Part shown: piece after piece, positions 895 to 34,423 of the stretch
Layout of the letters: each line of letters starts with the position of its first letter
Position numbering within the stretch: the stretch's first letter is position 1
Source of the DNA: Nesterenkonia marinintestina
GTDB lineage: Bacteria > Actinomycetota > Actinomycetes > Actinomycetales > Micrococcaceae
Reading direction: 5' to 3'
Assembly: GCF_025420485.1 (NCBI RefSeq)
Contig: NZ_JAOEFD010000014.1
Coordinates: forward strand, 1-61,969
Length of the DNA stretch: 61,969 nt
Position numbers and translations under genes: made by a program
Notes under the pieces: generated by a model
The model's database searches: none
Seen by the model: the letters and a program-made list of their open reading frames with translations, nothing else
Told to the model about the DNA's origin: nothing

Positions 895-1776
895 CTACCG
901 GAGCACCACCGTCTTGACCCCGTTGAGGAACACGCGCCCCTCACAGTGCCACCGCACCGCCTCCGAGAGCGCCCGGCATTCGGAGTCCCGACCCACGGCG
1001 ACGAGGTCCTCCGGCCCGTAGGTGTGGTCGACGTCCATCACCCGCTGGGAGATGATCGGGCCCTCGTCGAGTTCGTCGTTGACGTAGTGGGCGGTGGCTC
1101 CGACGGTCTTCACCCCGCGTTCGAAGGCCTGATGGTACGGCTTCGCCCCCTTGAACGACGGGAGGAACGAATGGTGGATGTTGATCGCTCGGCCGGAGAG
1201 CTCACGGGAGAGGTCGTCGGAGAGGATCTGCATGTAGCGGGCGAGCACCACCAGGTCCACCTCGAAGCGGGCGACGAGCTCCAGCAGCTGGGCCTCCGCC
1301 TGCGGCTTCGTGTCCGGGGTGACGGGCACGCAGAAGTACGGGATGCCGTGCCACTCGACCAGCTCGCGGTGGTCGGGATGGTTCGACACCACGGCTGCGA
1401 TCTCGGCGGGCAGATCGCCGATCCTGCACCGGTACAGCAGGTCGTTCAGGCAGTGGTCCGACTTCGAGGCCATGACCAGCAGACGGCGGCGCTGGCCGTG
1501 CGGTCGCAGATCCCACGTCGCCCCGACCTCCGTCGCGAGTTCGGTGAGCCCATCGCGGATCACCTGCTCCCGAGCCGCGACGTCGGGGGTCTCGGCGCCG
1601 TCGTCGGGGGAGAGCCGGACGTGGACGCGCAGGAAGAAGTGCTCGGTGTGCGGGTCGTCGAACTGCTTCAGCTCGACCACGTCGCCTCCCTGGGCGGCGA
1701 GCACGCCGGTCACCGCGTGGACGAGTCCCGGCCGCTCCGGGCTGTGGAAGGTGAGGATCATCTCCGCCGCGCTCAT
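895..1776 (-). CDS. purU: Formyltetrahydrofolate deformylase PurU
   Basis: PurU hydrolyses 10-formyl-THF to formate and THF. The 293-residue protein has an N-terminal ACT domain (about 1-85) and a C-terminal formyltransferase fold. The segment with INIHHSFLPSFKGAKPY carries the family asparagine and histidine, and a later Asp lies in the DELDEGPII stretch. It is the last gene of the soxB-D-A-G-purU operon and overlaps soxG by 4 bp. Sarcosine oxidase produces 5,10-methylene-THF, so PurU here most likely regenerates free THF by draining the one-carbon pool. A purU at the end of sox operons is seen in other bacteria and supports the assignment. Confidence 0.93.
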   Translation of the reverse strand: MSAAEMILTFHSPERPGLVHAVTGVLAAQGGDVVELKQFDDPHTEHFFLRVHVRLSPDDGAETPDVAAREQVIRDGLTELATEVGATWDLRPHGQRRRLLVMASKSDHCLNDLLYRCRIGDLPAEIAAVVSNHPDHRELVEWHGIPYFCVPVTPDTKPQAEAQLLELVARFEVDLVVLARYMQILSDDLSRELSGRAINIHHSFLPSFKGAKPYHQAFERGVKTVGATAHYVNDELDEGPIISQRVMDVDHTYGPEDLVAVGRDSECRALSEAVRWHCEGRVFLNGVKTVVLR

Positions 1777-2429
1777 CGGATCAGCTCCTCACCGGCGAAC
1801 TCCGCCATCCCGTCCAGCAGCCATCGGACCGTGTAGTCGGCGAACGAGGCGCGCGGGAGGATGCGGAAGACGTCCTCCCGGGTGCGGTGGACGATCGCCT
1901 GCACGGGCCCCAGCAGCGTAGAGGCTGCGGCCCCCGCGGGGAAGGCCCGCGGGTGCAGGTCCACGTGGCAGCCCTTCTCGAGCACGGAGCGGGCGCTGGG
2001 TCCAGTGAGCTCCAGGATCGTCCGATTCCCGGAGAGGTCCACGATCTGGCCGGGCATCCCGTCGAGCGCGCCCTCGATGCCGCGCACGTCGATCAGGCCT
2101 GCCAGGCCGGAGGGCTCCACGGCGAGGAACTCGTCCGGGGAGATCCAGATGACGTGGCGGCCCTCCGGATCCCCGGTGACGGTCTCTCCGGCCCTCGGCC
2201 CCGCCGGAAGGCCCACGCCCCAGGCCTCGGCCGCCGCGCGGCCCGAGGGCGCTCCCGGCTCCGCGCGGATCCCCAGCTGCACGGCGAAGGGGATCTCTCG
2301 GAGTCTGACCCCCCTGGGACCGTCGACGTCTCCGGCGCGCATCTGCTCGGTCAGGTGGGCGGCGGGGGAGCGGCGCAGGTCGGCAGGCGGGGCGGATGCC
2401 TGGTCGGCGGTCGTCTGGTCAGCCGTCAC
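1773..2429 (-). CDS. soxG: Sarcosine oxidase gamma subunit
   Basis: The 218-residue protein is the small gamma subunit of heterotetrameric sarcosine oxidase. Recognisable stretches include the block around VDLSGNRTILELTGPSAR and a C-terminal region ending SFADYTVRWLLDGM, both typical of SoxG and related to the GcvT fold. The first 30 residues are Ala/Thr/Gln-rich and probably disordered. It overlaps soxA by 11 bp at its start and purU by 4 bp at its end, so translation is likely coupled. SoxG has no known catalytic residues of its own and is needed for assembly of the complex. Confidence 0.9.
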   Translation of the reverse strand: MTADQTTADQASAPPADLRRSPAAHLTEQMRAGDVDGPRGVRLREIPFAVQLGIRAEPGAPSGRAAAEAWGVGLPAGPRAGETVTGDPEGRHVIWISPDEFLAVEPSGLAGLIDVRGIEGALDGMPGQIVDLSGNRTILELTGPSARSVLEKGCHVDLHPRAFPAGAAASTLLGPVQAIVHRTREDVFRILPRASFADYTVRWLLDGMAEFAGEELIR

Positions 2430-5373
2430 GACGGGTTCCTTCCGGGTCGAAGTGGACAGGGGAGGTGAGCTCCACGTCGACGAGCCTACCGTCGACCGGA
2501 CTGCGCACGACCTCGCCGATGCGGTTCCGCCCGTCCCACACCATGGCCAGGCCGAAGGGCCTCCCCAGCGCCGCGGAGCGGTAGGAGGAGGTGACGTGTC
2601 CGAGCATCGGCACGGGGCCCTCCTCCGGGGTGATCGGAGTCTGTGCTCCCACCAGCTGGGCTCCCTCCGGCAGCAGGGTCCGGCCGTCGGCGGGCAGCAC
2701 GCCGACCAGATGTTTGCGGTCCTGCCTCGCGGTGTCGGGGCGGGAGTGGGATCGGCGTCCGATGAAGTCCTCGGTCGTCGACACCGCCCATCCCATGCCC
2801 GCGTCCTGCGGGGTGACCGTCCCGTCGGTGTCCTGCCCGACGATGATCAGCCCCTTCTCGGCCCGCAGCACATGCATGGCCTCGGTGCCGTAGGGGGTGA
2901 TGTCGAAGGGTGCGCCGGCCTCCGCGATCAGCTCCCACGTCGCCAGGCCGCAGAAGTTCGCGACGTTGACCTCGAAGGCCAGTTCGCCGGAGAACGACAC
3001 GCGACAGATCCGTGCGGGGACCCCGTTGCGCAGCGTGGTCTCACGGAACGCCATGAAGCCGAACGCCTCGTTCGACACGTCCAGCTCCGGAGCGATGCGT
3101 GAGATGACTTCGCGGGACTTCGGCCCGACGACGGCGACGGTGCTCCACTGTTCGGTCACGGAGGTGAAGGCGACGTCGAGCTCCGGCCATTCGGTCTGGT
3201 GCCACTCCTCGAGCCAGTCCAGGACCGTGGCCGCGCCGCCTGTGGTGGTGGTCATCAGATACCGGTCGTCGGCGATGCGCAGGGTCACTCCGTCGTCGAA
3301 GATCATGCCGTCCGGCGTGCACATCAGGCCGTAGCGTCCCCTGCCGACCCGCAGCTTCGAGAAGACGCCGGTGTAGATGCGGTCGAGGAGCCGACCGGTG
3401 TCGGTCCCTCGGATCTCGATCTTCCCCAGGGTGGAGACGTCCTGGAAGCCCACCGACCCTCGGGCGGCCGCGCATTCGCGCAGCACTGCGGTCTCCATGT
3501 CCTCTCCGGTGCGCGGGTAGTACCGCGGCCGCTTCCACTGGCCCACGTCCTCGAAGACGGCTCCGTGGTCGGCGTGCCAGGAGTGGATGTTCGTGATCCG
3601 CGCCGGTTCGAAGAGCTCTCCGCGCCTCCGTCCTGCCAGTGCGGCGAAGGGCACCGGTGTGTAGGGGGCGCGGTAGGTGGTGGTGCCGACCTGCCCGGGG
3701 TGCCCCGCGCCGAGGACCGTGGCCAGCAGCCCGACCGTGTTGACTGCGCTGGTGCGGCCCTGGTCGTTGGCCGTGGAGATCGAGGTGTACCGCTTGACGT
3801 GCTCCACCGAACGCATTCCGGCTCCGACGGCACGCAGCGCGTCGGCCACCGTCTGGTCCCGCTGCATATCCACGAAGTGGGTCGACCACTCGGCGGGGTC
3901 CTGAGCGTCCGGTGCGCCGATCAGCCACAGGGCTCGTACCGGACCGTAGTCCAGATCGGCCCGGGGCCCGTCGGCCAGCGGGTCTCGGGTCTGCGGGGAA
4001 TCGCTCGGAGAGTCAGCCCCTTCGGCCCTGAAGCCGCAGGCCTCGGCGGCTCGCCGACCGGCCTCAGCTCCGGTGCGCAGCGCCCGACTCAGCGACCACG
4101 TGCCGGCCATCGCGCCGACGGTCTGCTGGCGCGCCACCGGTGCGGAGGGGACGAACGCGGCGAGTACGTCGTCCCAGGCGATGCCGCCCTGACGCTGACT
4201 GTGCAGATGCACCACGGGGGAGTGTCCTCCGGAGACGGCCAGGAGATCGGCGGAGAGCGTCTCGACGGAGCCGACCGGCACGTCGTCCCGGTCGAGGCGA
4301 TGCACGGTGACCGCGGTGAGACGTCCGGCGTCGCCGTCGCCGTCGCTTCCGGTCACGACGGCGTCGAAGATCCCGCGGACACCGGTGGCCTCCAGCACGG
4401 CGGCGGCACGCGGAGTCGCCTCCGGCCGGGAGTCGACCACGGCCACCGGAGGGGCTCCGGCCTCGGCGAGGTCCTCGAGCAAGCTGTAGACGGAGTCGTT
4501 GGTGGTGGCGACCACGATCTGCTCGCCGGCGAGGGCGGCGTACCGGTTCAGGTAGGTCCTCACGGCCTCGGCCAGCATGATCCCGGGCCGGTCGTCGTCG
4601 GCGAACATGAGCGGACGCTCGTGGGCACCGGCGGCCAGGATCACCTCGGCCGCCCGGATGTGCCACACCCGCTGACGCGAGACGCCCGGCCGCTCGGACG
4701 CCGGCAGGTGGTCGGTCCTGTTCTCGACGGCGACGACGTAGTTCGCGTCATAGCTGCCGACGGCGGTGGTCCGCGGCAGGTAGGTGAATTCTGCGGCCGT
4801 GCGGGCGTCGTCGACGGTCCGACGCGCCCAGGCGACGGCGTCGGTGGACTCGATCCGTTCACCGCGGGAGCTCAGCAGCGAGCCGCCCGGTGCCGGCTGC
4901 TCGTCCAGCAGCATGGTGCGGGCGCCCGAGGCGGCCGCCTGGGAGGCCGCGGCGATGCCTGCCGGGCCGGCGCCGACGACGAGGACGTCGGTGTGGACGC
5001 GTGTGTGGTCGTAGAGGGCGCCGTCCGGGGTCTCGTCGAGCCGGCCCAGCCCCTGCAGCCACGAGGCCCGCAGACCGTCGACGAGTTCGACGGTGGTGGC
5101 CGGGAGCATGGACTCCGCGGCGTGGCCCGGTGACCGCGGCTCGACGTGCAGCAGCGCATTCGGCTCCTCGACGCCGGCGCCCATGATCCCGCGGGCCCTG
5201 CCCAGGTACAGGGAGGGCCCGCAGGGGAGCTCGCCGGCGGCGACCATCGCGCTGGCGACGGTGTCTCCGGACAGGCCGGTGTGGGCCTCGCCGTCGAGGG
5301 TGAAGCTGTGCTCCGCGTCCCGGTCCACGCCGTAGCCGGGAGACCGGTCGATGCCGAGTCGACGGCTGGTCAT
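2419..5373 (-). CDS. soxA: Sarcosine oxidase alpha subunit
   Basis: This 984-residue subunit has the usual SoxA layout. The N-terminal domain resembles a ferredoxin-like hydrogen-cyanide-synthase alpha fold (about 1-100). An NAD-binding Rossmann domain follows with VLVVGAGPAGIAAA near residue 130, and a second nucleotide-binding part. The C-terminal GcvT-like THF-binding domain starts near residue 600 and includes EIRGTDTGRLLDRIYTG. In known enzymes this domain captures the methyl carbon as 5,10-methylene-THF after sarcosine oxidation in the beta subunit. The length is normal for the family. The gene overlaps soxD by 4 bp and soxG by 11 bp. Confidence 0.96.
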   Translation of the reverse strand: MTSRRLGIDRSPGYGVDRDAEHSFTLDGEAHTGLSGDTVASAMVAAGELPCGPSLYLGRARGIMGAGVEEPNALLHVEPRSPGHAAESMLPATTVELVDGLRASWLQGLGRLDETPDGALYDHTRVHTDVLVVGAGPAGIAAASQAAASGARTMLLDEQPAPGGSLLSSRGERIESTDAVAWARRTVDDARTAAEFTYLPRTTAVGSYDANYVVAVENRTDHLPASERPGVSRQRVWHIRAAEVILAAGAHERPLMFADDDRPGIMLAEAVRTYLNRYAALAGEQIVVATTNDSVYSLLEDLAEAGAPPVAVVDSRPEATPRAAAVLEATGVRGIFDAVVTGSDGDGDAGRLTAVTVHRLDRDDVPVGSVETLSADLLAVSGGHSPVVHLHSQRQGGIAWDDVLAAFVPSAPVARQQTVGAMAGTWSLSRALRTGAEAGRRAAEACGFRAEGADSPSDSPQTRDPLADGPRADLDYGPVRALWLIGAPDAQDPAEWSTHFVDMQRDQTVADALRAVGAGMRSVEHVKRYTSISTANDQGRTSAVNTVGLLATVLGAGHPGQVGTTTYRAPYTPVPFAALAGRRRGELFEPARITNIHSWHADHGAVFEDVGQWKRPRYYPRTGEDMETAVLRECAAARGSVGFQDVSTLGKIEIRGTDTGRLLDRIYTGVFSKLRVGRGRYGLMCTPDGMIFDDGVTLRIADDRYLMTTTTGGAATVLDWLEEWHQTEWPELDVAFTSVTEQWSTVAVVGPKSREVISRIAPELDVSNEAFGFMAFRETTLRNGVPARICRVSFSGELAFEVNVANFCGLATWELIAEAGAPFDITPYGTEAMHVLRAEKGLIIVGQDTDGTVTPQDAGMGWAVSTTEDFIGRRSHSRPDTARQDRKHLVGVLPADGRTLLPEGAQLVGAQTPITPEEGPVPMLGHVTSSYRSAALGRPFGLAMVWDGRNRIGEVVRSPVDGRLVDVELTSPVHFDPEGTRRDG

Positions 5374-5630
5374 CGCGACCCTCCCTCCGGAGTCAGGAAC
5401 TCATAGGTGACGGTGTCGCGGACGACGTCGAACCACTTGCGACAGCCTGCGGAGTGCTGCCAGCGCTCGGCGAAGGCTCCCGCCGGGTTGTCGCGGTAGA
5501 AGAGGAAGTGGGCCCAGGCGGCGTCGTCGAGCGCCTGAGGGTCCTCGGGGTAGGCCACGTGCGCCTGTCCTCCGTAGTGGAACTCCACCTCGTCACGCGG
5601 TCCGCAGTGCGGACAGGTGATCAGCAGCAT
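5370..5630 (-). CDS. soxD: Sarcosine oxidase delta subunit
   Basis: The 86-residue protein is the small zinc-binding delta subunit. Cys6, Cys9, His59 and Cys63 match the Cys3-His zinc site of SoxD. The family signature HFLFYRDNPAG is present at 41-51, as is WQHSAGCRKWF. It lies between soxB and soxA, the standard position, and its stop overlaps the soxA start by 4 bp. Confidence 0.95.
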   Translation of the reverse strand: MLLITCPHCGPRDEVEFHYGGQAHVAYPEDPQALDDAAWAHFLFYRDNPAGAFAERWQHSAGCRKWFDVVRDTVTYEFLTPEGGSR

Positions 5631-5657
5631 CGGGGTCTCCTAACCGGTGTGGGGAGG

Positions 5658-6875
5658 TCAGTGGGCGACGGCGGCGGCGCCGTGCTCGTCGATCAGGTGC
5701 CCGGTCTCGAACCGTTCCAGGACGAACGGGGCGTTCAGCGGGTGGGGTGCTCCGGTGGCGATGGTGTGGGCGAAGGTCAGCCCCGACGCCGGAGTCCCCT
5801 TGAATCCGCCGGTGCCCCAGCCGCAGTTCACATAGAGGCCGTCCACCTCGGTGGGGGAGATGATCGGGGACGCGTCCGGCGTGGTGTCCACGATGCCGCC
5901 CCATGTCCGGATGAGGTGCGCCCGGGCGAAGATCGGGAAGAGCTCGACGGCGGCCGCCATCTGGTCCTCGATGACGTGGAATCCTCCGCGCTGGCCGAAT
6001 CCGTTGTAGGAGTCCACGCCCGCCCCCATGACCAACTCTCCCTTATGAGCCTGTGAGACATAGACGTGGACGTGATTGGACATGACTACGGTGGGATGCA
6101 CCGGTTCGAAGAGCTCTGAGACCAGAGCCTGCAGCGGATGCGACTGGATCGGGAGCCGCACGCCTGCCAGTGCGGCGGCCTGCGAGGAGCGCCCGGCCAC
6201 GGCGAGCCCCACCGTCTCTGTGCTGATGCGACCGCGGGCGGTCTCCACGCCGACCACCCGATCGCCGTCCTTGTCGAAGCCGGTGACCTCGCAGTTCTGG
6301 ATGATGTCGACGCCCATCTCGTCGCAGCGCCGGGCCAGGGCCCAGGCGACATGGTCGTGCTTGGCGATGCCGGCCCGGGGCTGATAGGTGGCGCCCATCA
6401 CGGGGTAGCGGATCATGTCGTCGATGCTGATGATCGGACAGATCTCCCTGACCTGCAGCGGCTCCAGGAATTCGGCGTCCACCCCGTTGAGGTGGTTCGC
6501 GCCGACTCGGCGTCGGGAGTCGCGCACGTCCTGAAGGGTGTGGGCGAGGTTCAAGACGCCGCGCTGGGAGAACAGGAAGTCGTAGTCGAGCTCCGCCGGC
6601 AGCTCCTCCCAGAGCTTCAGCGACTTCTCGTAGATCGCGGCCGACTCGTCCCAGAGGTAGTTGGAGCGGATGATCGCCGTGTTCCTTGCCATGTTCCCAC
6701 CGGCCAGCCACCCCTTCTCCAGGACGGCGACGTCGGTGATCCCGTAGCGGGAGGCCAGATAGTACGCCGTGGCGAGTCCGTGGCCCCCGCCGCCGACGAT
6801 GACGACGTCGTAGCTGGACTTGGGCTCCGGGTTCCGCCAGAGGAAGTCGGGGTGCGGGGGAAGCATCTCTGCCAT
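5658..6875 (-). CDS. soxB: Sarcosine oxidase beta subunit, covalent flavoprotein
   Basis: SoxB is the catalytic subunit that oxidises sarcosine to glycine, using noncovalent FAD and covalent FMN. With the start at 6875 the protein is 405 residues. [18 protein letters not shown] (24-41) is the dinucleotide-binding motif. His173, in AKHDHVAWA, falls at the number reported for the covalent FMN histidine of corynebacterial enzymes. I chose the ATG at 6875 rather than one 33 bp upstream because GGAGG lies six bases before it and the protein then starts [11 protein letters not shown], as in homologues. It is the first gene of the sox operon and diverges from a GntR regulator across a palindromic operator. 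Confidence 0.96.
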
Positions 6876-6901
6876 CGGGCGCCTCCATCGACGGTCCGTG
6901 A

Positions 6902-6929
6902 TTGTCAACTGATATATCAGTTGTAGGCT
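6902..6929 (+). promoter_or_regulatory. Predicted promoter of the GntR gene
   Basis: TTGTCA at 6902-6907 and TAGGCT at 6924-6929 are separated by 16 bp and face the GntR gene. The spacer is almost filled by the palindrome at 6906-6923, so a bound repressor would block polymerase. Confidence 0.5.
6906..6923. promoter_or_regulatory. Perfect 18-bp palindromic operator between soxB and gntR
   Basis: CAACTGATATATCAGTTG is an exact inverted repeat with no mismatch. It sits in the intergenic region of the divergent soxB and GntR genes, about 30 bp upstream of the soxB start codon. Size and AT-rich centre suit a FCD-type GntR dimer. The likely reading is that the adjacent GntR protein controls both the sox operon and itself. 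Confidence 0.75.
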
Positions 6930-6997
6930 AGAGTCTAGGACAGCCGTTCTCGAGCTGACAAGGTTGCCGGTGCGAGGTGGTTCAGGAGGAGGAGATG

Positions 6998-7657
6998 ATG
7001 ACGATGTCCGTGGAGCCCTCCGTCGGGGCCGAGTCGATGGCGGACAGGGCCTACCATGCGCTGCGGCGACGACTCGTGTTCCTGGACCTCACTCCGGGCG
7101 CACCGATCGCGGAGAGCGCCCTGTCGGCGGAGCTCGGCGTCGGGCGCACTCCGCTGCGCGAGGCCCTGAAGCGACTCGAGGCTGACCACCTGGTGGTGAC
7201 CTTCGCCCGGCGGGGGACCTTCGCCTCAAGCGTCGACGTCGCCGAGCTCTCCGGCATCTCCGAGATGCGTCAGGCGCTGGTGCCGCTGGCGGCGCGCAAG
7301 GCCGCCCGGCAGCGGGGAGGAGGCGTCGCCGAGGAGCTCGCCCGGGAGACCGGGCGCCTGGAGGCCGGTCGGGGGACCGGTGGGGCCAGGGAGCTGCTCG
7401 AAGGGGACCTGCGCATCCACCGTCTCCTGAGCAGCGCGTCGGAGAACCTCTACCTCGAAGAGACCCTGGTGCGTCTGGACAGCCTGGTCACGCGTATGTG
7501 GTGTGCGATGCTCGACCGCATCCCACCCATGCAGGAGCACGTGCTGGAGCATGTGGCGCTGATCCGGGCGGTGCTCGACGGCGAGGAGGCTCGGGCGGAA
7601 CGGCTGGCCGGGGCCCACGTGGACCACTTCGACCGGGTGGTGCGCGAAGTCGTGTGA
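6998..7657 (+). CDS. GntR-family transcriptional regulator (FCD subfamily)
   Basis: The 219-residue protein has an N-terminal winged helix (about 10-75) with the GntR recognition region [18 protein letters not shown] helical FCD ligand domain (about 85-215) follows. Several in-frame starts exist (GTG 6977, ATG 6995, 6998, 7004); ATG 6998 best fits the strong AGGAGG at 6984-6989, eight bases upstream. It is transcribed away from soxB and converges on the dimethylglycine oxidase gene. Position suggests control of the sox operon, with sarcosine, a methylamine intermediate or glycine as possible ligand; the ligand is inference. Confidence 0.88.
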
Positions 7658-7689
7658 CACGCTCTCGGGCAGATCGTGCGGGGCGTGGA

Positions 7690-10209
7690 TCAGCTCCGCA
7701 TCCGGGAGCCTGAGGGGTCGAAGAGCCGGTCGGCGACCACATGCGCGCGCCAGCGGTCACCGAAGTGCTCCGTCAGCAGGGGCGTCCCCTCGGCGGCGAG
7801 CTCCGAGGGCACCCAGGCGTAGGCGATCGACTGTCCGACCGTGTGGCCCTGATCGGCGCTGGTCACATAGCCGACCGGCCCGTCGGAGCCGCGGGCGGGG
7901 TCGAACACCGGCTCGTGGCCCATCAGCACGTGGGTGGGGTCGTCGAGGGTCAGGCACGCCAGTCGGCGCGTGGGCAGGTCCGCACCGAGGGCGGCGAGCC
8001 GATCGGCCGCGGCCCCGCGGACCGCGAAGTCCAGGCCGGCCTCCGCCGGAGTGTGCTCCGGCGTCATGTCGGATCCCCAGAGTCGGAATCCCTTCTCGAG
8101 CCGCATGCTCTCGAATGCCCGGCGACCCACGGGAACGATGCCGAGGTCCCGGCCCGCGGCCATGATCTCGTCCCACAGGAACCGCCCGAACTCCGCGGGT
8201 GCGTAGATCTCCCACCCGAGCTCGCCGACGTAGCTCAGCCGCAGGGAGAGCACCGGCACCCCGGCGATCTGCAGCCGGCGGCAGCGATAGAAGCCGAACG
8301 CCTCACGCGAGACGTCCTCGTCGACCAGGCGCGACAGCACCTCCCGCGCCTGCGGACCCCACAGGCCCACCCCGCAGGAGCCGGTCGAGACGTCGGTGAT
8401 GCGGAGGTCGGCCCCGTGGGCCCGCATCTTCCGGCTCAGCCACGCCGCATCCTGATGCCCGTTGACGCCGAGATGGAACTCCTGGTCACCGGTCCGTGCG
8501 ATCGTCACGTCGGAGAGGATCCCGCCGCGGGGTCCGAGCATCAGCGCGTAGACGATGCTCCCCACCGATGTGCCGACGGGTCTGCTGAGCGCGCCCTCGT
8601 CGCTCAGCGCGGCGAAGAACTCCGAGGCACCGGCCCCGGAGACCTCCAGACGGGGGAGGGGCGTCATATCGACCAGACCAACGGATGCCCGCAGCCCGCG
8701 GACCTCCGCCGCGACCGCGGGATCCCAATGGCGGGCGGTCCACGGATCGCGCTCGGGTGCCGGCGCACCGTCGGACCCGTCGGTGTCCGCGCCGTACCAG
8801 AGCGGCCGCTCCCACCCGCCGGACGATTCGAAGACCGCGCCGAGGGCCTGCTGCCGTTCGTGGAACGGCGAGGTCCGCAGGCCGCGCATACGCAGGGTGG
8901 TGGCCTTCGGATGGACGATGTCATAGACCTCGTCGTAGGACTCTTCGCCCTGCTCGCGCGCCCATCGTCGTGTCACCACCGCAGGGTCGAACCGACTGAG
9001 GTCCAGGCCGTGGGTGTCGATCCCGGGATCACCGTGGACGATCCAGTCGGCCATGACCTGCCCGACGCCGGCGGACTGGGTGACCCAGACCGCCTGAGCC
9101 ATCCAGAGGCCCTCTGTGCCGGGCACGGGCCCCAGCAGCGGTCCCCCGTCGGGGGTGAACGAGAAGATCCCGTTGAAGCTGGCGTCCTCATCCAGATCGA
9201 CCGACCGCAGCGCCGGCAGCAGCCGTCGGGTCTCGTCCCACGTCGGCTGATAGTCCTCGCGGGTGAACGGGTGGATCGACGGTTGGACGCCGGTTCGGCG
9301 GGCCTCCTCGGGTGAGGCGATCTCCTCCGGCGCCACCGGCAGGGGCCGGTGCTCGTAGGCGCCGATGCAGATCCGGTCCCCCCACTCGCGCAGGTACATC
9401 GCGAAGTCCTGGTGGCGGAGCATCGGTCGTCCGACCTCCGTGCCCTCGTCGAGGTCGGTCACCGCCGGGGCGGGGAGGCTGAATCCGAATCCGTGCTCGA
9501 CCGGCACCATCGCGATGTCCAGGTCGAGCATCTCCCGAGCCGCCCCCGGACCCCAGAGGCCGGTGCAGCTCACCACCACGTCGGCGTCCAGGGTCTGAGG
9601 GTCGACGTCGCCGACGCCCACGGGGACGACGTCGACTCCCGTCACACGTCCGTGGTCGCGACGGATCGCGACGGCACGGGTGTCGGGCAGGATCGTCGCC
9701 CCGCCGGCCTCGGCGCGGCGGGCCTGGAATTCGACGGCGCGGACTCCCTTGACCACGGCGTCGTTGGGGGTGTGGAGGCCTCCTAGGACCAGGTCCGTGT
9801 CCAGGCCGGGCCACAGGCGGCCCACCTGTTCGGCCGACAGCAGTTCGGCCGGCACGCCCCATGATCTGGCGAGGCCGAGCCGACGGTGCAGCTCCCGCAG
9901 GCGTTCCGGCGTCGTCGCGATCTCGATGCCTCCGACGCGCTTCATGACCCACCCGTCGTCGACGGCGGCCCCGTCGAGCTTGTCCAGTGTGCGCCGAGCC
10001 AGTTCGGTCATGGCTCGATGCGGCGAGATCTGGAAGACGAAGCCGGGCGCATGGGAGCTGGAGCCGCCGGTGGCGTACAGGGGGCCCTGCTCCACGACGG
10101 TCACGTCCGTCCGTCCCCGGAGCACCAGCTCGTCGGCCAGTGCGGCTCCGACGACACCGAGGCCGATGATCACCACGCGGGAACCTTCGGGGAGACCACT
10201 CTGCGACAT
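7690..10209 (-). CDS. dmg: Dimethylglycine oxidase (FAD plus folate-binding domain)
   Basis: This 839-residue enzyme closely follows the layout of Arthrobacter globiformis dimethylglycine oxidase (about 830 residues). An N-terminal DAO-type FAD domain has VVIIGLGVVGAALADEL (12-28). GGSSSHAPGFVFQ places His53 at the position of the covalent flavin histidine. A His in VPVEHGFGFS and a Tyr in AMYLREWGDR match the family's active-site pair. The C-terminal half is a GcvT-type domain that binds THF and keeps the formaldehyde equivalent as methylene-THF. The product is sarcosine, the substrate of the neighbouring sox operon. AGGGAGGG precedes the ATG, and an operator-like repeat lies 15 bp further upstream. 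Sarcosine dehydrogenase is a less likely alternative. Confidence 0.88.
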   Translation of the reverse strand: MSQSGLPEGSRVVIIGLGVVGAALADELVLRGRTDVTVVEQGPLYATGGSSSHAPGFVFQISPHRAMTELARRTLDKLDGAAVDDGWVMKRVGGIEIATTPERLRELHRRLGLARSWGVPAELLSAEQVGRLWPGLDTDLVLGGLHTPNDAVVKGVRAVEFQARRAEAGGATILPDTRAVAIRRDHGRVTGVDVVPVGVGDVDPQTLDADVVVSCTGLWGPGAAREMLDLDIAMVPVEHGFGFSLPAPAVTDLDEGTEVGRPMLRHQDFAMYLREWGDRICIGAYEHRPLPVAPEEIASPEEARRTGVQPSIHPFTREDYQPTWDETRRLLPALRSVDLDEDASFNGIFSFTPDGGPLLGPVPGTEGLWMAQAVWVTQSAGVGQVMADWIVHGDPGIDTHGLDLSRFDPAVVTRRWAREQGEESYDEVYDIVHPKATTLRMRGLRTSPFHERQQALGAVFESSGGWERPLWYGADTDGSDGAPAPERDPWTARHWDPAVAAEVRGLRASVGLVDMTPLPRLEVSGAGASEFFAALSDEGALSRPVGTSVGSIVYALMLGPRGGILSDVTIARTGDQEFHLGVNGHQDAAWLSRKMRAHGADLRITDVSTGSCGVGLWGPQAREVLSRLVDEDVSREAFGFYRCRRLQIAGVPVLSLRLSYVGELGWEIYAPAEFGRFLWDEIMAAGRDLGIVPVGRRAFESMRLEKGFRLWGSDMTPEHTPAEAGLDFAVRGAAADRLAALGADLPTRRLACLTLDDPTHVLMGHEPVFDPARGSDGPVGYVTSADQGHTVGQSIAYAWVPSELAAEGTPLLTEHFGDRWRAHVVADRLFDPSGSRMRS

Positions 10210-10223
10210 CTGCCCTCCCTAGC

Positions 10224-10240
10224 GTTGCGGCTGGCGCAAC
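10224..10240. promoter_or_regulatory. Operator GTTGCG-N5-CGCAAC upstream of dmg
   Basis: GTTGCG (10224-10229) and CGCAAC (10235-10240) are exact inverted arms with a 5-bp centre, 15 bp upstream of the dmg start codon. The same architecture recurs at 11177-11193 in front of the Rieske operon. The IclR gene lies between the two sites, so IclR is the natural candidate binder. Confidence 0.7.
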
Positions 10241-10303
10241 GGCGTGTAGAAGATGCACTCACTCTAGAGAATGTGTGATCACCGACACAAGGGTGGCGGG
10301 CCG

Positions 10304-11083
10304 TCAGGCGGAGAAGTAGCCGAGTCGGGCCGCCAGCTGCGAAGCTTCGGCCGTCAGCAGTTCGGCCGTCTCGGCGAAGTGCGATTCGGGGAGTCGGAAG
10401 GACGGCGCCGTGGCCGACAGAGCGGCGACGACCTCGCCCTGCGGACCGTGCACCGGGACGGCCAGGGCATTGATGCCCTGCTCCCATTCGGCGACCGCGG
10501 AGGACCAGCCGCGGGCGCGGACGGCCTCCAGTTCGGCGCGCAGGAGCTCGGGATCCGTCATGGTCATGCCGGTGAAGTTCTCGAGGCCGCGGGCGACCAC
10601 CTCGTCGAGCGCCCCCTCGTCGGAGTGGGCCAGCAGGACCTTGCCCGTGGATGTGGCGTGCAGGGGCCCGCGCTGTCCGACGTACTGCCTGGTCAGCCCC
10701 ACCATCTGCTCACCCTGTGCCTGAGTGATCGTCACCGCTCCGCCCTCGGCGAGGATGGCGACGTTGACGGTCTCGTTGAGGCGCCGGGCCAATGCGGTGC
10801 AGCTGGACTGGGCGTCGCGGCTGAGGTCGATCCGCCCGGAGACCGAGCTCGCCAGGCGCAGGACGCCGAAGCTCAGCCGGTAGGACCCTCGGGCGGCCTC
10901 CTGCTCGACCAGGTCATGTGCCTCCAGGGTGCCCAGCAGGCGGAATGCGGTGGAGCGATGGACTCCCAGGCGCCGTGAGATCTCGCTGATGCTCGCGGAG
11001 GGCGTCTCGCTGAGCAGCTCCAGGATCGTCACGGCGCGCTCCACCGATTGGACTCCGCCGGCGCTTCCGGTCTTGGGGGGCAT
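10304..11083 (-). CDS. IclR-family transcriptional regulator
   Basis: The protein is 259 residues from the ATG at 11083, where AGGAAAGGGA lies about eight bases upstream; a longer frame from 11152 has no such site. The N-terminal winged helix (about 12-75) contains SASISEISRRLGVHRSTAFRLLGTLE. The C-terminal IclR effector domain (about 85-250) has the typical SxTGKVLLA stretch, here TSTGKVLLAH. It lies downstream of the dmg promoter region and diverges from the Rieske genes. Shared operator repeats suggest it controls both betaine and dimethylglycine oxidation. Whether it activates or represses cannot be told. Confidence 0.9.
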   Translation of the reverse strand: MPPKTGSAGGVQSVERAVTILELLSETPSASISEISRRLGVHRSTAFRLLGTLEAHDLVEQEAARGSYRLSFGVLRLASSVSGRIDLSRDAQSSCTALARRLNETVNVAILAEGGAVTITQAQGEQMVGLTRQYVGQRGPLHATSTGKVLLAHSDEGALDEVVARGLENFTGMTMTDPELLRAELEAVRARGWSSAVAEWEQGINALAVPVHGPQGEVVAALSATAPSFRLPESHFAETAELLTAEASQLAARLGYFSA

Positions 11084-11112
11084 GGGTTCGTCCCTTTCCT
11101 GCGGTGTGTCCC

Positions 11113-11143
11113 TTGACGTGATGCGCGTCACGGGTGGCATACT
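11113..11143 (+). promoter_or_regulatory. Predicted promoter of the Rieske operon
   Basis: TTGACG at 11113-11118 and an extended -10, TGG-CATACT (hexamer 11138-11143), point toward the Rieske ferredoxin gene. The spacer is 19 bp, longer than ideal, but the TGn extension compensates. The -35 lies inside an imperfect palindrome (11115-11130, TGACG...CGTCA). Confidence 0.45.
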
Positions 11144-11157
11144 CGGTCGCACCTGGT

Positions 11158-11193
11158 GTTGCGCATAAGACGAGCTGTTGCGCTATACACAAC
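11158..11193. promoter_or_regulatory. Operator: GTTGCG half site plus GTTGCG-N5-CACAAC
   Basis: GTTGCG occurs at 11158-11163 and again at 11177-11182. The second copy pairs with CACAAC (11188-11193) across 5 bp, the same geometry as the dmg site with one arm mismatch. The two copies of TGTTGCGC start 19 bp apart. The region would lie just downstream of the predicted start of the Rieske operon. Confidence 0.65.
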
Positions 11194-11214
11194 ACTACGA
11201 ATCGTCGGTGGTGA

Positions 11215-11568
11215 ATGCAAGTGGCGTTCAGGGCATGTTCCGTCCAAGACCTCACCGCGGGGGAGGGCCTCCGCATCGACTCGGTCAGTCCTCCCATCGC
11301 CGTCTTCCTCACGGAGGAGGGATCGGTGCACGCGGTGGACGACACCTGCACCCACCAGGACGCCTCCCTGGCCGCCGGCTGGGTGGAGGACTGCCGAGTG
11401 GAGTGTCCGCTGCATGAGAGCACCTTCTCACTGCTCAGCGGTGCGGTGGACCAACCGCCGGCGAAGCGGCCGGTGCGGGTGCATCACGTGACTCTCCACG
11501 GCGACGACGTGCTCGTAGAACTCTCGCAGGAGGCTCCGAACCTCCCTCCGGGGATGGGGACCGTATGA
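11215..11568 (+). CDS. Rieske [2Fe-2S] ferredoxin
   Basis: The 117-residue soluble protein has the Rieske cluster ligands Cys45-Thr-His47 and Cys64-Pro-Leu-His67. It resembles the ferredoxin components of three-component ring-hydroxylating oxygenases. It is followed, with a 4-bp overlap, by a FAD reductase and then a Rieske oxygenase, so it should carry electrons from the first to the second. The upstream SD is weak. This is an unusual partner for betaine demethylases, which commonly use a fused flavin-ferredoxin reductase (GbcB type). Confidence 0.9.
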   Translation: MQVAFRACSVQDLTAGEGLRIDSVSPPIAVFLTEEGSVHAVDDTCTHQDASLAAGWVEDCRVECPLHESTFSLLSGAVDQPPAKRPVRVHHVTLHGDDVLVELSQEAPNLPPGMGTV

Positions 11569-12827
11569 CGGTCCCGACGCTCGCCCCCGAAGGCCACCTG
11601 CTCATCGTCGGGGCCGGGCTGGCGGGGTATCACACCGCACGCGGGGTCCGCGCGCACGGTCACACCGGTCCCATCACGATCATCGGCGAAGAGCATCGGG
11701 CGGCCTACGACCGTCCTGCCCTGTCCAAGGCCTATCTCACCGGTGCGGCGGCCGAGGAGGACCTGCTCCTCGACGATCCGGAGGACCCGCTCGACGTCAC
11801 CTGGGTCAGCGGAGTCGGAGTGGTCGGCCTCCGGGCCGAGCCTCTGGGGGTGCACACCGACGACGGCGCGTTCCACACCGCCGACGCCGTCGTCATCACC
11901 ACGGGAGCATCCGCGCTGAGTCTCCCCTCCCTCGACTCCTCCGAGGACCGGGGCGGCTGCGCCCCGGCTCGGCCCTACGTGCTGCGGAACATGGAGGATG
12001 CGCTCGCACTGCGGGACACCCCGCTGCACGGGGCCGACGTCGTCGTGGTGGGCGGCGGATTCCTCGCACTCGAGTCCGCGGCCACCTGTGTCGCCCGCGG
12101 CGCAGGATCCGTCACTGTGGCCGCAGGTGAGGAGGACCCCGGCGCCCGACGCCTCGGGTCGCCGGTGGCTCGGGCCATCCGTTCGGCCCACGAGGCCCGG
12201 GGCATACGCTTCGCCCCCGGGGCCAGGGCGCAGGGGCTTCGTCGACGTCCGCCCTCAGACGGAGGTCCCCACTACGAGGTGCTGCTCGGCGACGGGGGAG
12301 TGCTCCCGGCCGACATCGTCATCTGCGCGATCGGCGCCGAGCCTCGTACCGAGTGGCTTCTGGACTCGTTCGTCCGTCTCTGCACACAGAGCGGTGCGGT
12401 GCTGTGCGACGACACCGGGGCGACATCGGTGCCCGGGGTGTACGCCGCAGGCGACTGCGCGCAGTGGGCCTCCCACTCCAGCGGGCTGCGACCGGTCGGT
12501 CACTGGCAGGAGGCCTTCGAGGAGGCGGCCGTCGTCGCCGCCGCACTGACCGGATCCGACCCCGTCCCGCTCCAGGAGCCGTACTTCTGGTCGGATCAGT
12601 TCGACCTCAGGATCCAGGGCGTCGGTCGGATCCACCTGGCCGATGATGTCACGGTCGTCGACGGCACCTCGGACGGTGGAGACCTGCTGGTGCACTACTC
12701 CCGGGACGGAGTGAACGTCGGAATCCTGGGGATCAACCGACTCCGCGACGTCACCCGTTGGCGCCGCGGCAGCCGGATCCGTCCCGCCTCGGCGGAGGCG
12801 CCCGGCCCCACCCCCGTCTCTGCCTGA
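11565..12827 (+). CDS. FAD-dependent NAD(P)H:ferredoxin reductase
   Basis: The 420-residue protein has two dinucleotide-binding motifs: HLLIVGAGLAGYHTARG for FAD (about 11-27) and VVVVGGGFLALESA for NAD(P)H (about 155-170). A third element, VPGVYAAGDCAQW, is typical of putidaredoxin-reductase-like enzymes. The C-terminal part matches the reductase C domain. It should reduce the preceding Rieske ferredoxin. Its start overlaps the ferredoxin stop, and the oxygenase begins 10 bp after its end, so all three are one operon. Confidence 0.92.
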   Translation: MTVPTLAPEGHLLIVGAGLAGYHTARGVRAHGHTGPITIIGEEHRAAYDRPALSKAYLTGAAAEEDLLLDDPEDPLDVTWVSGVGVVGLRAEPLGVHTDDGAFHTADAVVITTGASALSLPSLDSSEDRGGCAPARPYVLRNMEDALALRDTPLHGADVVVVGGGFLALESAATCVARGAGSVTVAAGEEDPGARRLGSPVARAIRSAHEARGIRFAPGARAQGLRRRPPSDGGPHYEVLLGDGGVLPADIVICAIGAEPRTEWLLDSFVRLCTQSGAVLCDDTGATSVPGVYAAGDCAQWASHSSGLRPVGHWQEAFEEAAVVAAALTGSDPVPLQEPYFWSDQFDLRIQGVGRIHLADDVTVVDGTSDGGDLLVHYSRDGVNVGILGINRLRDVTRWRRGSRIRPASAEAPGPTPVSA

Positions 12828-12837
12828 GGAGGGTCCC

Positions 12838-13989
12838 ATGATCATCGACCCCCTGGACCGACCCCTCCCCGGTGCCTCGCTTCATCCCACCCTCACCGGT
12901 GACGCCTACACGGACCCGGAGGTCTTCCGCGCCGAACAGGCCTCGATCTTCGAGACCATGTGGAACTGCGTGCTGCGAGCCGACGCCCTGCCGAGCCCGG
13001 GCCATTGGAGGACCGTGCAGGTCGGCAGGGAGGAGATCATCGTCGTCCGAAGCCGCAGCGCGGGCATCCGCGCCTACTACAACGTGTGCGCGCACCGCGG
13101 CATGAGGGTGTGCACCGGATATGAGGGCGTGAGCAGGAAGCTGCAGTGCGGCTACCACGCCTGGACGTACACCCTGGAGGGAGACCTCGCGGCGGCGCCG
13201 AACCTGACCTCCATGCCCGATGTGGACCGGGAGGACTACGGGCTGCGGCCGGTCCACGTCCGGGAGTGGCTCGGCTATGTGTGGGTCAGCCTGGCCGATG
13301 AGCCGCCGAACTTCGACCAGGAGGTGCTCGGGGAGGTGCGCACGCGGTTCGGTGAGGTCGAGTCGATCGACAACTACGGCATCGATCGGCTGCGGGTCGC
13401 GGAGTCGAAGACCTACGACGTGGGGGCGAACTGGAAGCTCATCATCGAGAACTTCATGGAGTGCTACCACTGCGCAACCATCCACCCGGAACTGACCGAG
13501 GTCATCCCTGAGTTCGCCGACGGTCTGGCCTCACAGCGCGCCGGCGGGGCGGTCCATGGATCGGGGTTCGGACAGGACGTCGCGGGGTTCACCGTCGACG
13601 GCTCGGAGTCGGGGCTCTCGGAGCTGCCCTCGATCGCACCCGATCAGGAACGCAGGTACTACGCCATCACGGTGAAGCCTCAGGTCTTCATCAACACCGT
13701 CCCGGACCATGTGATCGTCCATCGGATGACTCCGATCTCACCGGAGCGCACCGTCGTCGAGTGTGACTGGCTCTTCGCCGCCGAGGTCGTCGACCGTGTC
13801 GAGTCCGGGGAGCTCGACGTGGCGCGGTCGGTGGAGCTGTTCCACCGGGTCAACCTCCAGGACTTCGAGGCCTGCGAGCTCACACAGCCGTCGATGAGCT
13901 CGAAGGCGTATAAGGGCGGTGGGGCGCTGGTGCCCAGCGAGCACCACATCGGTGAGTTCCATGAGTGGTGGCGGCGAACACTCCGGTGA
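12838..13989 (+). CDS. Rieske oxygenase alpha subunit, probable glycine betaine demethylase
   Basis: The 383-residue protein has a Rieske domain with Cys84, His86, Cys104 and His107 and a catalytic domain with His211, His216 and Asp342 as likely mononuclear iron ligands. The family also contains GbcA-type glycine betaine monooxygenase and stachydrine demethylase. Location next to dimethylglycine and sarcosine oxidation genes makes betaine the best substrate guess: betaine plus O2 gives dimethylglycine and formaldehyde. No small beta subunit is present, as in GbcA-type homotrimers. A good SD, GAGGAGGG, precedes the ATG. Carnitine or proline betaine are alternative substrates. Confidence 0.78.
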   Translation: MIIDPLDRPLPGASLHPTLTGDAYTDPEVFRAEQASIFETMWNCVLRADALPSPGHWRTVQVGREEIIVVRSRSAGIRAYYNVCAHRGMRVCTGYEGVSRKLQCGYHAWTYTLEGDLAAAPNLTSMPDVDREDYGLRPVHVREWLGYVWVSLADEPPNFDQEVLGEVRTRFGEVESIDNYGIDRLRVAESKTYDVGANWKLIIENFMECYHCATIHPELTEVIPEFADGLASQRAGGAVHGSGFGQDVAGFTVDGSESGLSELPSIAPDQERRYYAITVKPQVFINTVPDHVIVHRMTPISPERTVVECDWLFAAEVVDRVESGELDVARSVELFHRVNLQDFEACELTQPSMSSKAYKGGGALVPSEHHIGEFHEWWRRTLR

Positions 13990-14020: not shown

Positions 14021-15379
14021 TCACAGCAGCAGACTCAGGATCCAGACGGCGGCGAACGCCGTGACCCCCTGGACGGCAGAGGCCACGGTGATCGTGCGGT
14101 AGGCCGTGCCGACCGGGATGCGGCTCAGCTGGGACACGACCCAGAAGAACGAGTCGTTGGCGTGGGACACCATCATCGCCCCGGCACCCACGGCGAGGAC
14201 GGCCAGCACGGCCCCGGTGGAGCTTCCCAGGCCGAGGGCGTCCGTCAGGGGCGCCACCAGGGCGGAGCCGGTGATGATGGCGACCGTCGAGGATCCCTGA
14301 GCGGTCTTCAGCGCCGCGGCCACGAGGAACGGCACTGCGATGCCGATGCCGAGGTCGCTGAGCGTCTCGGCCAGGAAGTCCGTCAGAGGTGCCTCGTTGA
14401 GGACCGCCCCGAAGGAGGCACCGGCTCCGGTGATCAGGAGGATGGGCGCTGAGACGCGGATCGCCTCCGCCATCTGTTCGTTGAAGGTCTGGAGCTTACC
14501 GGTTCCTGAGAGCTGGGTGACGGCGATGAGCAGCCCGATGATCAGGGCGATGACCGGTGTGCCGAGGAACACCAGCGCATCGATGAGCAGCTCCGGCCCG
14601 CCGTCGATTCCGGGCAGCTGGACGAAGGACCCCACACAGATCAGCAGCAGGGGCACGCCGATGGGTGCGAACGCCGCCCCCGCGTTGGGCAGGCGTCCGT
14701 AGGAGGCGCGGAGCTCGTCGTAGTCGAGATCCTCGATGTCGTCGTCCTTGCCGGCGGGGAGCCGCTCGAAGTCCTTGTGGGAGAGTCGCGCGGCGAGGAG
14801 CAGGGCAGAACCGGCCGCAGCCGCGGAGACGACGAGGCCCAGCCCGACCACGAGGCCGAGCTGGTCCGTCACACCGAGTTCCCCGGCCGCCGCCAGCGGA
14901 CCTGGGGTGGGAGGCACCAGATTGTGGGTGGCGAACAGACCGGTCATCAGTGCGACCGACGTCGCCACAGCCGAGATCCCTGCCCGGGCTGTGACCGCCT
15001 TGCGCAGCGAATTCAGGATGACGTATCCCGAGTCGCAGAAGACCGGGATCGAGACGAGGTATCCGATCACCGACATGGTGAGGTTCGGGAATCGCGACCC
15101 GATCAGCCTGATCAGGGCGTCAGCCATGGCGATGGCCGCCCCGGACCGTTCGAGGATCACCCCGATCATCGTGCCGAGGACGATCACCAGCCCGATGTTG
15201 CCGAGCGTGCTGCCGAAGGCCTCGGTCACGACGTCGACGCTGTCGGTCAGGGGGATGCGGTACAGCAGCGCCGCCAGCAGCGCGGCGCCCAGCAGCGCCA
15301 GGAAGGGATTGACCTTCCACCGGGCGGTGACCAGGACGATTCCGGCCACCAGGGCCACAAGGATGAGCAGATCGACCAC
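14021..15379 (-). CDS. GntP-family gluconate:H+ symporter-like permease
   Basis: The 452-residue protein is hydrophobic throughout, with about 12 membrane segments, and carries the GntP family hallmark IPVFCDSGYVILNSLRK near residues 110-127 and THNLVPPTPGPLAAA near 150. Members take up gluconate, hydroxy acids or related anions. No gluconate kinase or dehydratase lies nearby, so the substrate is open. It converges on the Rieske oxygenase with only 31 bp between stops, and it diverges from the HAD gene. Confidence 0.9.
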   Translation of the reverse strand: MVDLLILVALVAGIVLVTARWKVNPFLALLGAALLAALLYRIPLTDSVDVVTEAFGSTLGNIGLVIVLGTMIGVILERSGAAIAMADALIRLIGSRFPNLTMSVIGYLVSIPVFCDSGYVILNSLRKAVTARAGISAVATSVALMTGLFATHNLVPPTPGPLAAAGELGVTDQLGLVVGLGLVVSAAAAGSALLLAARLSHKDFERLPAGKDDDIEDLDYDELRASYGRLPNAGAAFAPIGVPLLLICVGSFVQLPGIDGGPELLIDALVFLGTPVIALIIGLLIAVTQLSGTGKLQTFNEQMAEAIRVSAPILLITGAGASFGAVLNEAPLTDFLAETLSDLGIGIAVPFLVAAALKTAQGSSTVAIITGSALVAPLTDALGLGSSTGAVLAVLAVGAGAMMVSHANDSFFWVVSQLSRIPVGTAYRTITVASAVQGVTAFAAVWILSLLL

Positions 15380-18339: not shown

Positions 18340-18468
18340 ACCAGGCCCTCCTCGCCCTCGTCGTTCGACTGTGGATCCCCCTCCACCCTGCCCGAGCATG
18401 ACCGTTTGTGGCAAGGATCACGGGCCGCTGACCTGGGGCGATGCTGGGGTGCGGCCGCGGTGAGGTGC

Positions 18469-19695: not shown

Positions 19696-19757
19696 GCTGT
19701 CACTGTACCGACCGTGCTCCCGATACGCGTCCGAGTCTGACCTGCGACGATGGGGGT

Positions 19758-34290: not shown

Positions 34291-34423
34291 CGGCAGCCGC
34301 TGGGGAGGTTCTGCGGCCCGCGGGGGCGACCGCCGTGCCGACGAACTCGTCGGGCCCGTCCGACGCTATGCTGAACGGGCATCGCCGCACCTCAGCACGC
34401 CGAACCACCCTCGGGGGAGCCCC

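Follow-up and report, generated by a model that had tools for sequence, protein, structure and literature searches.

The 61,969-nt contig NZ_JAOEFD010000014.1 of Nesterenkonia marinintestina, hereafter called the window, carries a compact locus for which a sequence-only reading had proposed the entire oxidative route from glycine betaine to glycine. We analysed this part of the window, which extends from position 895 to 13989; all coordinates given are contig positions. The host genome comprises 2.58 Mb at a completeness of 99.7%. Three groups of genes are present (Table 1), namely purU and the sox genes with a GntR-type regulator, the gene for a dimethylglycine oxidase (DMGO) with an IclR-type regulator, and an operon for a Rieske ferredoxin, an FAD-dependent reductase and a Rieske oxygenase. 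The purU-soxG-soxA-soxD-soxB genes all lie on the minus strand and overlap or are tightly spaced, with the GntR/FCD regulator gene divergent from them. The IclR gene is located upstream of the DMGO gene on the same strand, and the Rieske operon is divergent from it. All previously named genes were found at their places, as were the two local regulators, the second of which is the IclR protein encoded on the minus strand. A plus-strand open reading frame (ORF) at 10271-10978 was rejected as the second regulator; because no Pfam or NCBIfam model matches it, we took it as a shadow of the IclR gene on the opposite strand. Neither glyA nor a betaine transporter gene was present among the locus ORFs scanned with Pfam and NCBIfam, as the earlier description had stated. 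The ORF of soxB opens at a TTG codon (6908), but the ATG at 6875 fits better to PDB 1vrq_B, the match to which begins at residue 13 of the longer frame; the ORF of the IclR gene opens at GTG 11152, and the ATG at 11083 looks likelier.

Table 1. Features of the proposed betaine locus and the basis of their assignment
Feature	Position	Strand	Basis or remark
purU, formyltetrahydrofolate deformylase	895..1776	-	TIGR00655 310.6 bits, above cut-off 285.95
soxG, sarcosine oxidase gamma subunit	1773..2429	-	TIGR01375 128.3 bits, below cut-off 143.95; Pfam SoxG above cut-off
soxA, sarcosine oxidase alpha subunit	2419..5373	-	TIGR01372 1160 bits, cut-off 1164; PDB 1vrq_A over residues 4-984
soxD, sarcosine oxidase delta subunit	5370..5630	-	TIGR01374 124.5 bits, above cut-off 116.5
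soxB, sarcosine oxidase beta subunit	5658..6875	-	TIGR01373 606 bits, above cut-off 529.45; PDB 1vrq_B 8e-228
Perfect 18-bp palindrome CAACTGATATATCAGTTG	6906..6923	.	GntR operator candidate for the sox-purU operon
GntR/FCD transcription regulator	6977..7657	+	Pfam GntR and FCD above cut-off; divergent from sox-purU
Dimethylglycine oxidase (DMGO), DAO + FAO_M + GCV_T + GCV_T_C	7690..10209	-	PDB 1pj5 3.4e-207; Pfam
Candidate IclR operator CGTTGC-N7-GCAACG	10223..10241	.	13 bp before DMGO start; one base off the searched pattern
IclR-family regulator	10304..11083	-	Pfam HTH_IclR and IclR_C above cut-off
Possible Rieske operon promoter, TTGACG, 19 nt, CATACT	11113..11143	+	read from the sequence
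Candidate IclR operator, TGTTGCGC half site and TGTTGC-N7-ACAACA	11157..11194 (core 11176-11194)	.	20 bp before ferredoxin start
Rieske-type [2Fe-2S] ferredoxin	11215..11568	+	Pfam Rieske; NF007422 120.1 bits, above cut-off 113
FAD-dependent ferredoxin reductase (HcaD-like)	11565..12827	+	Pyr_redox_2 and Reductase_C; 184 bits to the HcaD model (cut-off 450)
Rieske oxygenase, proposed glycine betaine demethylase	12838..13989	+	Pfam Rieske and Ring_hydroxyl_A

The chemistry of the DMGO, sarcosine oxidase and PurU steps is established for these enzyme families. The alignment of DMGO with the solved enzyme of Arthrobacter globiformis covers residues 10-838, and this full-length match is accompanied by the DAO-FAO_M-GCV_T-GCV_T_C architecture. 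The subunits BDAG of a heterotetrameric sarcosine oxidase are all encoded in one operon, and SoxA and SoxB match the solved tetrameric enzyme over almost their entire length. The products of soxB and soxD pass their NCBIfam cut-offs; that of soxA falls short by 4 bits and that of soxG also stays under its cut-off, while both still cover most of their profiles. The pathway itself is ordinary, and the interest of the locus lies in its first enzyme.

The best curated model for the Rieske oxygenase is that of GbcA (NF058607), which it matches in two stretches, the best one spanning residues 19-229, with 210.2 bits against a cut-off of 670. The closest solved structures by sequence are 3vca (4.3e-52; the stachydrine demethylase Stc2), 4qup, 3n0q (labelled as putative aromatic-ring hydroxylating dioxygenase) and the carnitine monooxygenase 6y8j (7.3e-39). 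All marks of group V Rieske oxygenases are present, i.e., the CxH/CxxH Rieske motif, the His-His-Asp iron site (H211, H216 and D342), the bridging Glu208 and the adjacent C209-x-x-C212 pair; residues C84, H86, C104, H107, F206, E208, C209, H211, C212, H216 and D342 are invariant across 20 aligned sequences. The pocket position corresponding to Y203 of CntA is occupied by Phe206, an aromatic residue as in group Va. All 110 examined relatives of this enzyme type, which we call the window type (29 further loci, the 80-locus set introduced below and one from Nonomuraea, some genomes being counted in both the 29 and the 80), likewise have Phe there, as does a protein from Priestia; Asn was found in 7/7 GbcA-like rows, Stc2 and a Paracoccus sequence. 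According to PMC7948474, oxygenases for carnitine, choline and benzalkonium are recognised by an aromatic residue at this position, and the demethylases of betaine and stachydrine by Asn.

The single reductase partner of the GbcB/YeaX type is replaced in the operon by the Rieske ferredoxin and the FAD reductase. Because the oxygenase fails the NF058607 cut-off and has neither the pocket Asn nor a GbcB/YeaX-type reductase, we rejected filing it as GbcA. In a tree built from 26 selected rows, those of the GbcA-like type, Stc2 and Paracoccus group together at 100/99, or at 99/99 after adding row L163, with the window type apart; judged by its sequence, the oxygenase lineage lies outside the GbcA/Stc2 clade. 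Its placement relative to YeaW and Stc2 received a support of 42/0 with p values of 0.35 and 0.20, the former from the approximately unbiased (AU) test for placing the window type and Escherichia coli YeaW in one clade; the best tree differs from this and is weakly supported. A further AU value of p 0.0014 was not used, because the tested group had omitted the Stc2-side row L163. Two window-type genes from one genus (G042:C16:43338-44522 and G178:C11:17641-18825) show an apparent insertion of ~20 residues past about residue 153 with the frame open. A phage search for the oxygenase yielded distant ones only (9 records, <60% identity).

The distribution of the oxygenase was followed in 197 sampled genomes of the family, in which the best few candidates per genome were scored. 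DMGO homologues were counted at E <= 1e-80, which possibly let in paralogues, and a match in G152 (36% identity, another type) was removed before the count. The window-type oxygenase was present in 36 genomes, a GbcA/Stc2-like one in 66 and a DMGO homologue in 103, and DMGO was present in every genome with either oxygenase (36/36 and 66/66, respectively). Among the family genomes carrying another Rieske oxygenase (match to the GbcA model at 1e-30) and neither of these types, DMGO was present in 3/12. The two types tend to alternate, as the 103 DMGO genomes comprise 56 with the GbcA/Stc2-like type only, 26 with the window type only, 10 with both and 11 with neither, and six genera contain species with the window type alone next to species with the GbcA/Stc2-like type alone. 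Shuffling the labels within genera gave 13.7 expected double carriers against 10 observed (p 0.006); the plain Fisher value of 2.7e-8 for the two types among DMGO genomes is not taken at face value, because related genomes are not independent. The window type lies within 15 kb of DMGO in 33/36 family genomes and the GbcA-like type in 53/66. The latter occurs at 72 places in its 66 genomes (e.g., L120-L149) with 376-412 bits to NF058607, and because these scores are under 670, these oxygenases too would go unnamed by the model. In a phylum-wide draw of 396 genomes, likewise scored for the best few candidates and with a DMGO threshold of E <= 1e-120, the window type was found in 10 genomes, all with DMGO (10/10, against 82/396 overall); seven of these carriers come from one genus, and two (the window's genome and G009) are shared with the family sample.

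Evidence for common regulation came from the intergenic region between the IclR and ferredoxin genes, which was compared between the window and 14 other loci (15 regions, 13 distinct sequences). The pattern [TC]GTTGC-N7-[GA]CAACA, to which the operator core before the ferredoxin gene belongs, was found in 12/15 of them; in the promoter alignment of 15 rows, TTGAC is present in 15/15 and CATAC or GATAC in 9/15. A consensus promoter scan did not list the possible promoter of the Rieske operon, its one listed site being near soxB. In many actinobacteria, the oxygenase operon and the DMGO gene are both preceded by a common motif, TGTTGC-N7-GCAACA. We counted the pattern [TC]GTTGC-N7-[GA]CAACA in the best 80 of at least 587 confirmed stretches (the 80-locus set of 1.48 Mb, with some pairs from one genome) and obtained 35 sites, whereas 58 permuted versions of it gave 0.24 sites on average and 3 at most. 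Of these sites, 28 fall between -300 bp and +40 bp around the start of a mapped pathway gene, with ferredoxin (15), IclR (9), DMGO (9), oxygenase (3) and reductase (1) genes behind them and some sites shared by two; 6 of the 35 came from regions used to derive the motif, and excluding them leaves 22/29 before pathway genes. The exact pattern occurs once in the window, the site before DMGO being a near match, and stands 2-35 bp before DMGO in L040, L041, L044, L045, L048 and L067.

Because the motif precedes both the ferredoxin operon and DMGO, the first two steps of the pathway appear to be under one regulator, which is presumably the IclR protein of this locus, and the position of the site near the start codon suggests repression. 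The nearest NCBIfam model of this regulator is BhcR, with 166.7 bits under a cut-off of 350. The palindrome before soxB is a candidate site for the GntR protein; two related palindromes were found near glyA in one relative (L044 and L172, one contig).

Among the matches listed, the nearest relatives of the oxygenase come from Nesterenkonia and other Micrococcaceae, and its linkage to pathway genes recurs across orders. In the 80-locus set we mapped DMGO in 41 loci, the tetrameric sarcosine oxidase in 29, purU in 37, the IclR gene in 70, the ferredoxin in 59 and the FAD reductase in 62. A gene similar to monomeric sarcosine oxidase is present in 11 loci, none of which has the tetrameric enzyme (0/11). 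A reductase of the GbcB/YeaX type was found in 0/80 loci using distant queries (~30% identity), and each of the two GbcA-like loci examined (L168 and L169) has one GbcB-like reductase as well as purU and DMGO nearby. In one window-type locus (L175, genome G110), a YeaX-like gene (36%) is located at a distance of about 3 kb from the oxygenase gene, besides the ferredoxin and the FAD reductase. In A. globiformis NBRC 12137, the oxygenase gene lies 7 kb from the gene whose product is the solved DMGO itself (100% identity over 139 residues). On a plasmid of Priestia megaterium, a 42% identical oxygenase is surrounded by genes for a DMGO-like protein, an oxidase annotated as solA and a BCCT transporter, and gcv, sdaA and glyA are found beyond these; this oxygenase is annotated as 'aromatic ring-hydroxylating dioxygenase subunit alpha'. 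In the relatives L042, L044, L172 and L173 (L044 and L172 being one contig), glyA and a serine dehydratase gene join the locus, which bears on the earlier remark that glyA is missing here.

Two arrangements in these relatives were recorded besides. The cluster of A. globiformis (L087:12264-16092) contains a MoeA-like gene and a gene for an FdhF/YdeP-type oxidoreductase similar to formate dehydrogenase, a possible sink for formate released by PurU. Three Streptomyces (L062/L075, Streptomyces scabiei; L060/L074; L068/L093) possess a pair of window-type oxygenases separated by about 22-24 kb; one copy is close to sox genes, and the other immediately follows genes for a ferredoxin and a reductase.

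Other routes for the first step were looked for in the host genome. The locus oxygenase is its one Ring_hydroxyl_A protein, and neither a BHMT-type protein (PF02574; the control matched in 9/14 genomes) nor a member of the MttB family (PF06253; control in 1/14 genomes), to which MtgB belongs, was found in it. Four BCCT transporters are encoded elsewhere in the genome, one of them with a choline-dehydrogenase-like GMC gene about 2 kb away, and an L-serine dehydratase is present, which makes betaine uptake and downstream use plausible.

In the proposed pathway, electrons would pass from NADH via the FAD reductase and the Rieske ferredoxin to the mononuclear iron of the oxygenase, which would oxidise an N-methyl group of betaine, yielding dimethylglycine and formaldehyde; the three-component oxygenase would thus take the place of GbcAB. 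DMGO would then convert dimethylglycine to sarcosine and SoxBDAG would convert sarcosine to glycine, the methyl carbon being transferred to tetrahydrofolate in either step, and PurU would recycle the cofactor by splitting surplus formyl-tetrahydrofolate into tetrahydrofolate and formate. The IclR protein would govern the first two steps via the sites before the ferredoxin and DMGO genes, and the GntR protein the third step and purU via the palindrome before soxB. We estimate a probability of roughly 80% that the locus encodes this complete oxidative demethylation of betaine to glycine, headed by a distinct three-component Rieske betaine demethylase. Betaine as the substrate of the oxygenase is well supported by genomic association, because DMGO accompanies the enzyme, the latter tends to alternate with the GbcA/Stc2-like type, a common motif precedes both genes, the linkage extends to the solved DMGO of A. 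globiformis and the searches of the genome found no BHMT-type, MttB-type or second Ring_hydroxyl_A protein. The betaine link, which the sequence-only reading had drawn from position alone, has thus gained support from the DMGO co-occurrence in both genome samples, the motif and the linkage; its complete route is supported, with the refinements that the oxygenase is not of the GbcA family and has Phe as its pocket residue.

Several observations weigh against this assignment. The genomes surveyed are related, so the co-occurrence counts are not independent, and Phe206 is a residue of the aromatic kind by which PMC7948474 recognises oxygenases for carnitine, choline and benzalkonium. The ten genomes with both oxygenases imply that the two types may differ in substrate, and three of the 11 DMGO genomes with neither type belong to the window's own genus, whose nine DMGO genomes include six with the window type. 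No DMGO, sarcosine oxidase or purU was found at the coverage asked in 12 of the 80 loci, eight of which do not reach 13 kb in length; among the four long loci, two had matches under laxer limits (purU in L061, DMGO at the edge in L085). Finally, a pair of DMGO genes is located close to the oxygenase gene in A. globiformis, the second paralogue being 3 kb off on the other side, and several Streptomyces have two window-type copies.

If the oxygenase acted on choline or carnitine, following the chemistry of group Va, betaine would have to enter via another enzyme. Although Phe206 matches the Va signature and the AU test does not reject a clade with E. coli YeaW, we consider this unlikely, as neither described reaction gives dimethylglycine, yet DMGO accompanies the window type throughout the family sample and shares its motif; moreover, no second Ring_hydroxyl_A, BHMT-type or MttB-type protein was detected in the genome, and the 80 loci searched with distant queries gave no GbcB/YeaX-type reductase, the YeaX-like gene of L175 standing alone. 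Slightly less probable still is the demethylation of a different N-methyl quaternary amine that feeds DMGO or sarcosine oxidase, with betaine a side substrate at most. The genomes with both types, the duplicate copies in Streptomyces and 3vca as the closest solved structure would fit such a substrate; the presence of DMGO with all GbcA/Stc2-like as well as all window-type enzymes, the tendency of the two types to exclude each other within genera and the BCCT transporter adjoining the Priestia relative argue against it. The annotation of that relative and the resemblance of the ferredoxin and reductase to HcaC/HcaD would suggest an aromatic-ring dioxygenase that is merely located beside sarcosine genes. 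We ruled this out as highly improbable because of the group V residues and the recurring linkage across orders: the bridging Glu and the CxxC pair are present in the window type, whereas L160, L162 and L164, Rieske oxygenases of the family that are more distant, have Asp instead of this Glu and no CxxC, and the operon contains no gene for a second oxygenase subunit.

The proposed betaine demethylase can be compared with several described systems. Gene clusters with DMGO, soxBDAG and purU are present in related actinobacteria, as here, the Arthrobacter dmg/sox clusters reportedly having been described by Meskys et al. in 2001. GbcAB or BmoAB of Pseudomonas, Chromohalobacter and Vibrio natriegens share the proposed reaction and are group V Rieske oxygenases as well; they differ from the window type in clade, NF058607 score and pocket residue (Asn for Phe206), and in electron supply by the single GbcB reductase instead of a ferredoxin and an FAD reductase. 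Stc2 also resembles the window type in the CxxC pair and the bridging Glu and demethylates a betaine at nitrogen, as proposed here, but it has the pocket Asn and groups with the GbcA-like clade; its substrate is reported to bind the iron through the carboxylate, while in CntA the ammonium group is held by Y203. CntA and E. coli YeaW share the aromatic pocket residue, the bridging Glu and the CxxC pair, but use a YeaX/CntB reductase and cleave carnitine to trimethylamine; the E. coli YeaW locus has no dimethylglycine or sarcosine genes within a 6-kb stretch. The BHMT and MtgBCDE routes start with the same step, but their enzymes are methyltransferases, matches to which are missing from this genome.

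The pathway and its gene clustering are already known: gbcAB of V. natriegens cluster with soxBDAG and purU, as here (PMC12093977), and Arthrobacter sp. Rue61a is listed as growing on betaine with an 'incomplete' gene route (PMC3534580). Either oxygenase type, the window or the GbcA-like one, could fill this gap. PMC2991359 states for an Arthrobacter that the genes for two of three betaine steps were not identified, and PMC11945447 mentions KEGG-labelled bmoA and bmoB in a Paenarthrobacter, which are presumably of the GbcA-like type. As first-step enzymes, PMC12478193 (2025) names GbcAB, BHMT and MtgBCDE and notes some aerobic betaine users without GbcAB. No description of the three-component type was found in the full-text literature searched, which excludes most subscription papers, so that a prior description is possible. 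We think it probable, with somewhat less assurance than for the locus as a whole, that the window type constitutes a new betaine demethylation enzyme beside GbcAB, BHMT and MtgBCDE, i.e., a three-component Rieske system spread across Actinomycetota with a relative in Priestia, holding betaine with an aromatic pocket residue, under a conserved IclR regulon, repeatedly exchanged with the GbcA-like type and breaking the Va/Vb rule. In saline habitats and soils, betaine is of major importance as an osmolyte and as a nutrient, and current models leave the window-type oxygenase unnamed, the best NCBIfam match being far under its cut-off and the Priestia relative being labelled as an aromatic-ring dioxygenase. 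If the proposal is correct, betaine use would be predictable in many more actinobacteria, and the one-residue rule dividing group V into demethylases and hydroxylases would need revision.

Some genes of the window outside the locus were also inspected. A GntP-family permease gene (14021-15379) is convergent with the oxygenase gene; it was rejected as the betaine transporter, since matches of at least 30% identity were confined to loci of the host genome, many of the family-genome loci in this comparison being only about 4 kb long. The locus is further followed by genes for an aconitase-family protein of 672 residues (16396-18414) and a glucose/sorbosone dehydrogenase-family protein (18469-19791). 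About 19 kb from the locus lies a gene for a choline-dehydrogenase-like GMC oxidoreductase (32928-34382), which reaches 368 bits against a cut-off of 605.

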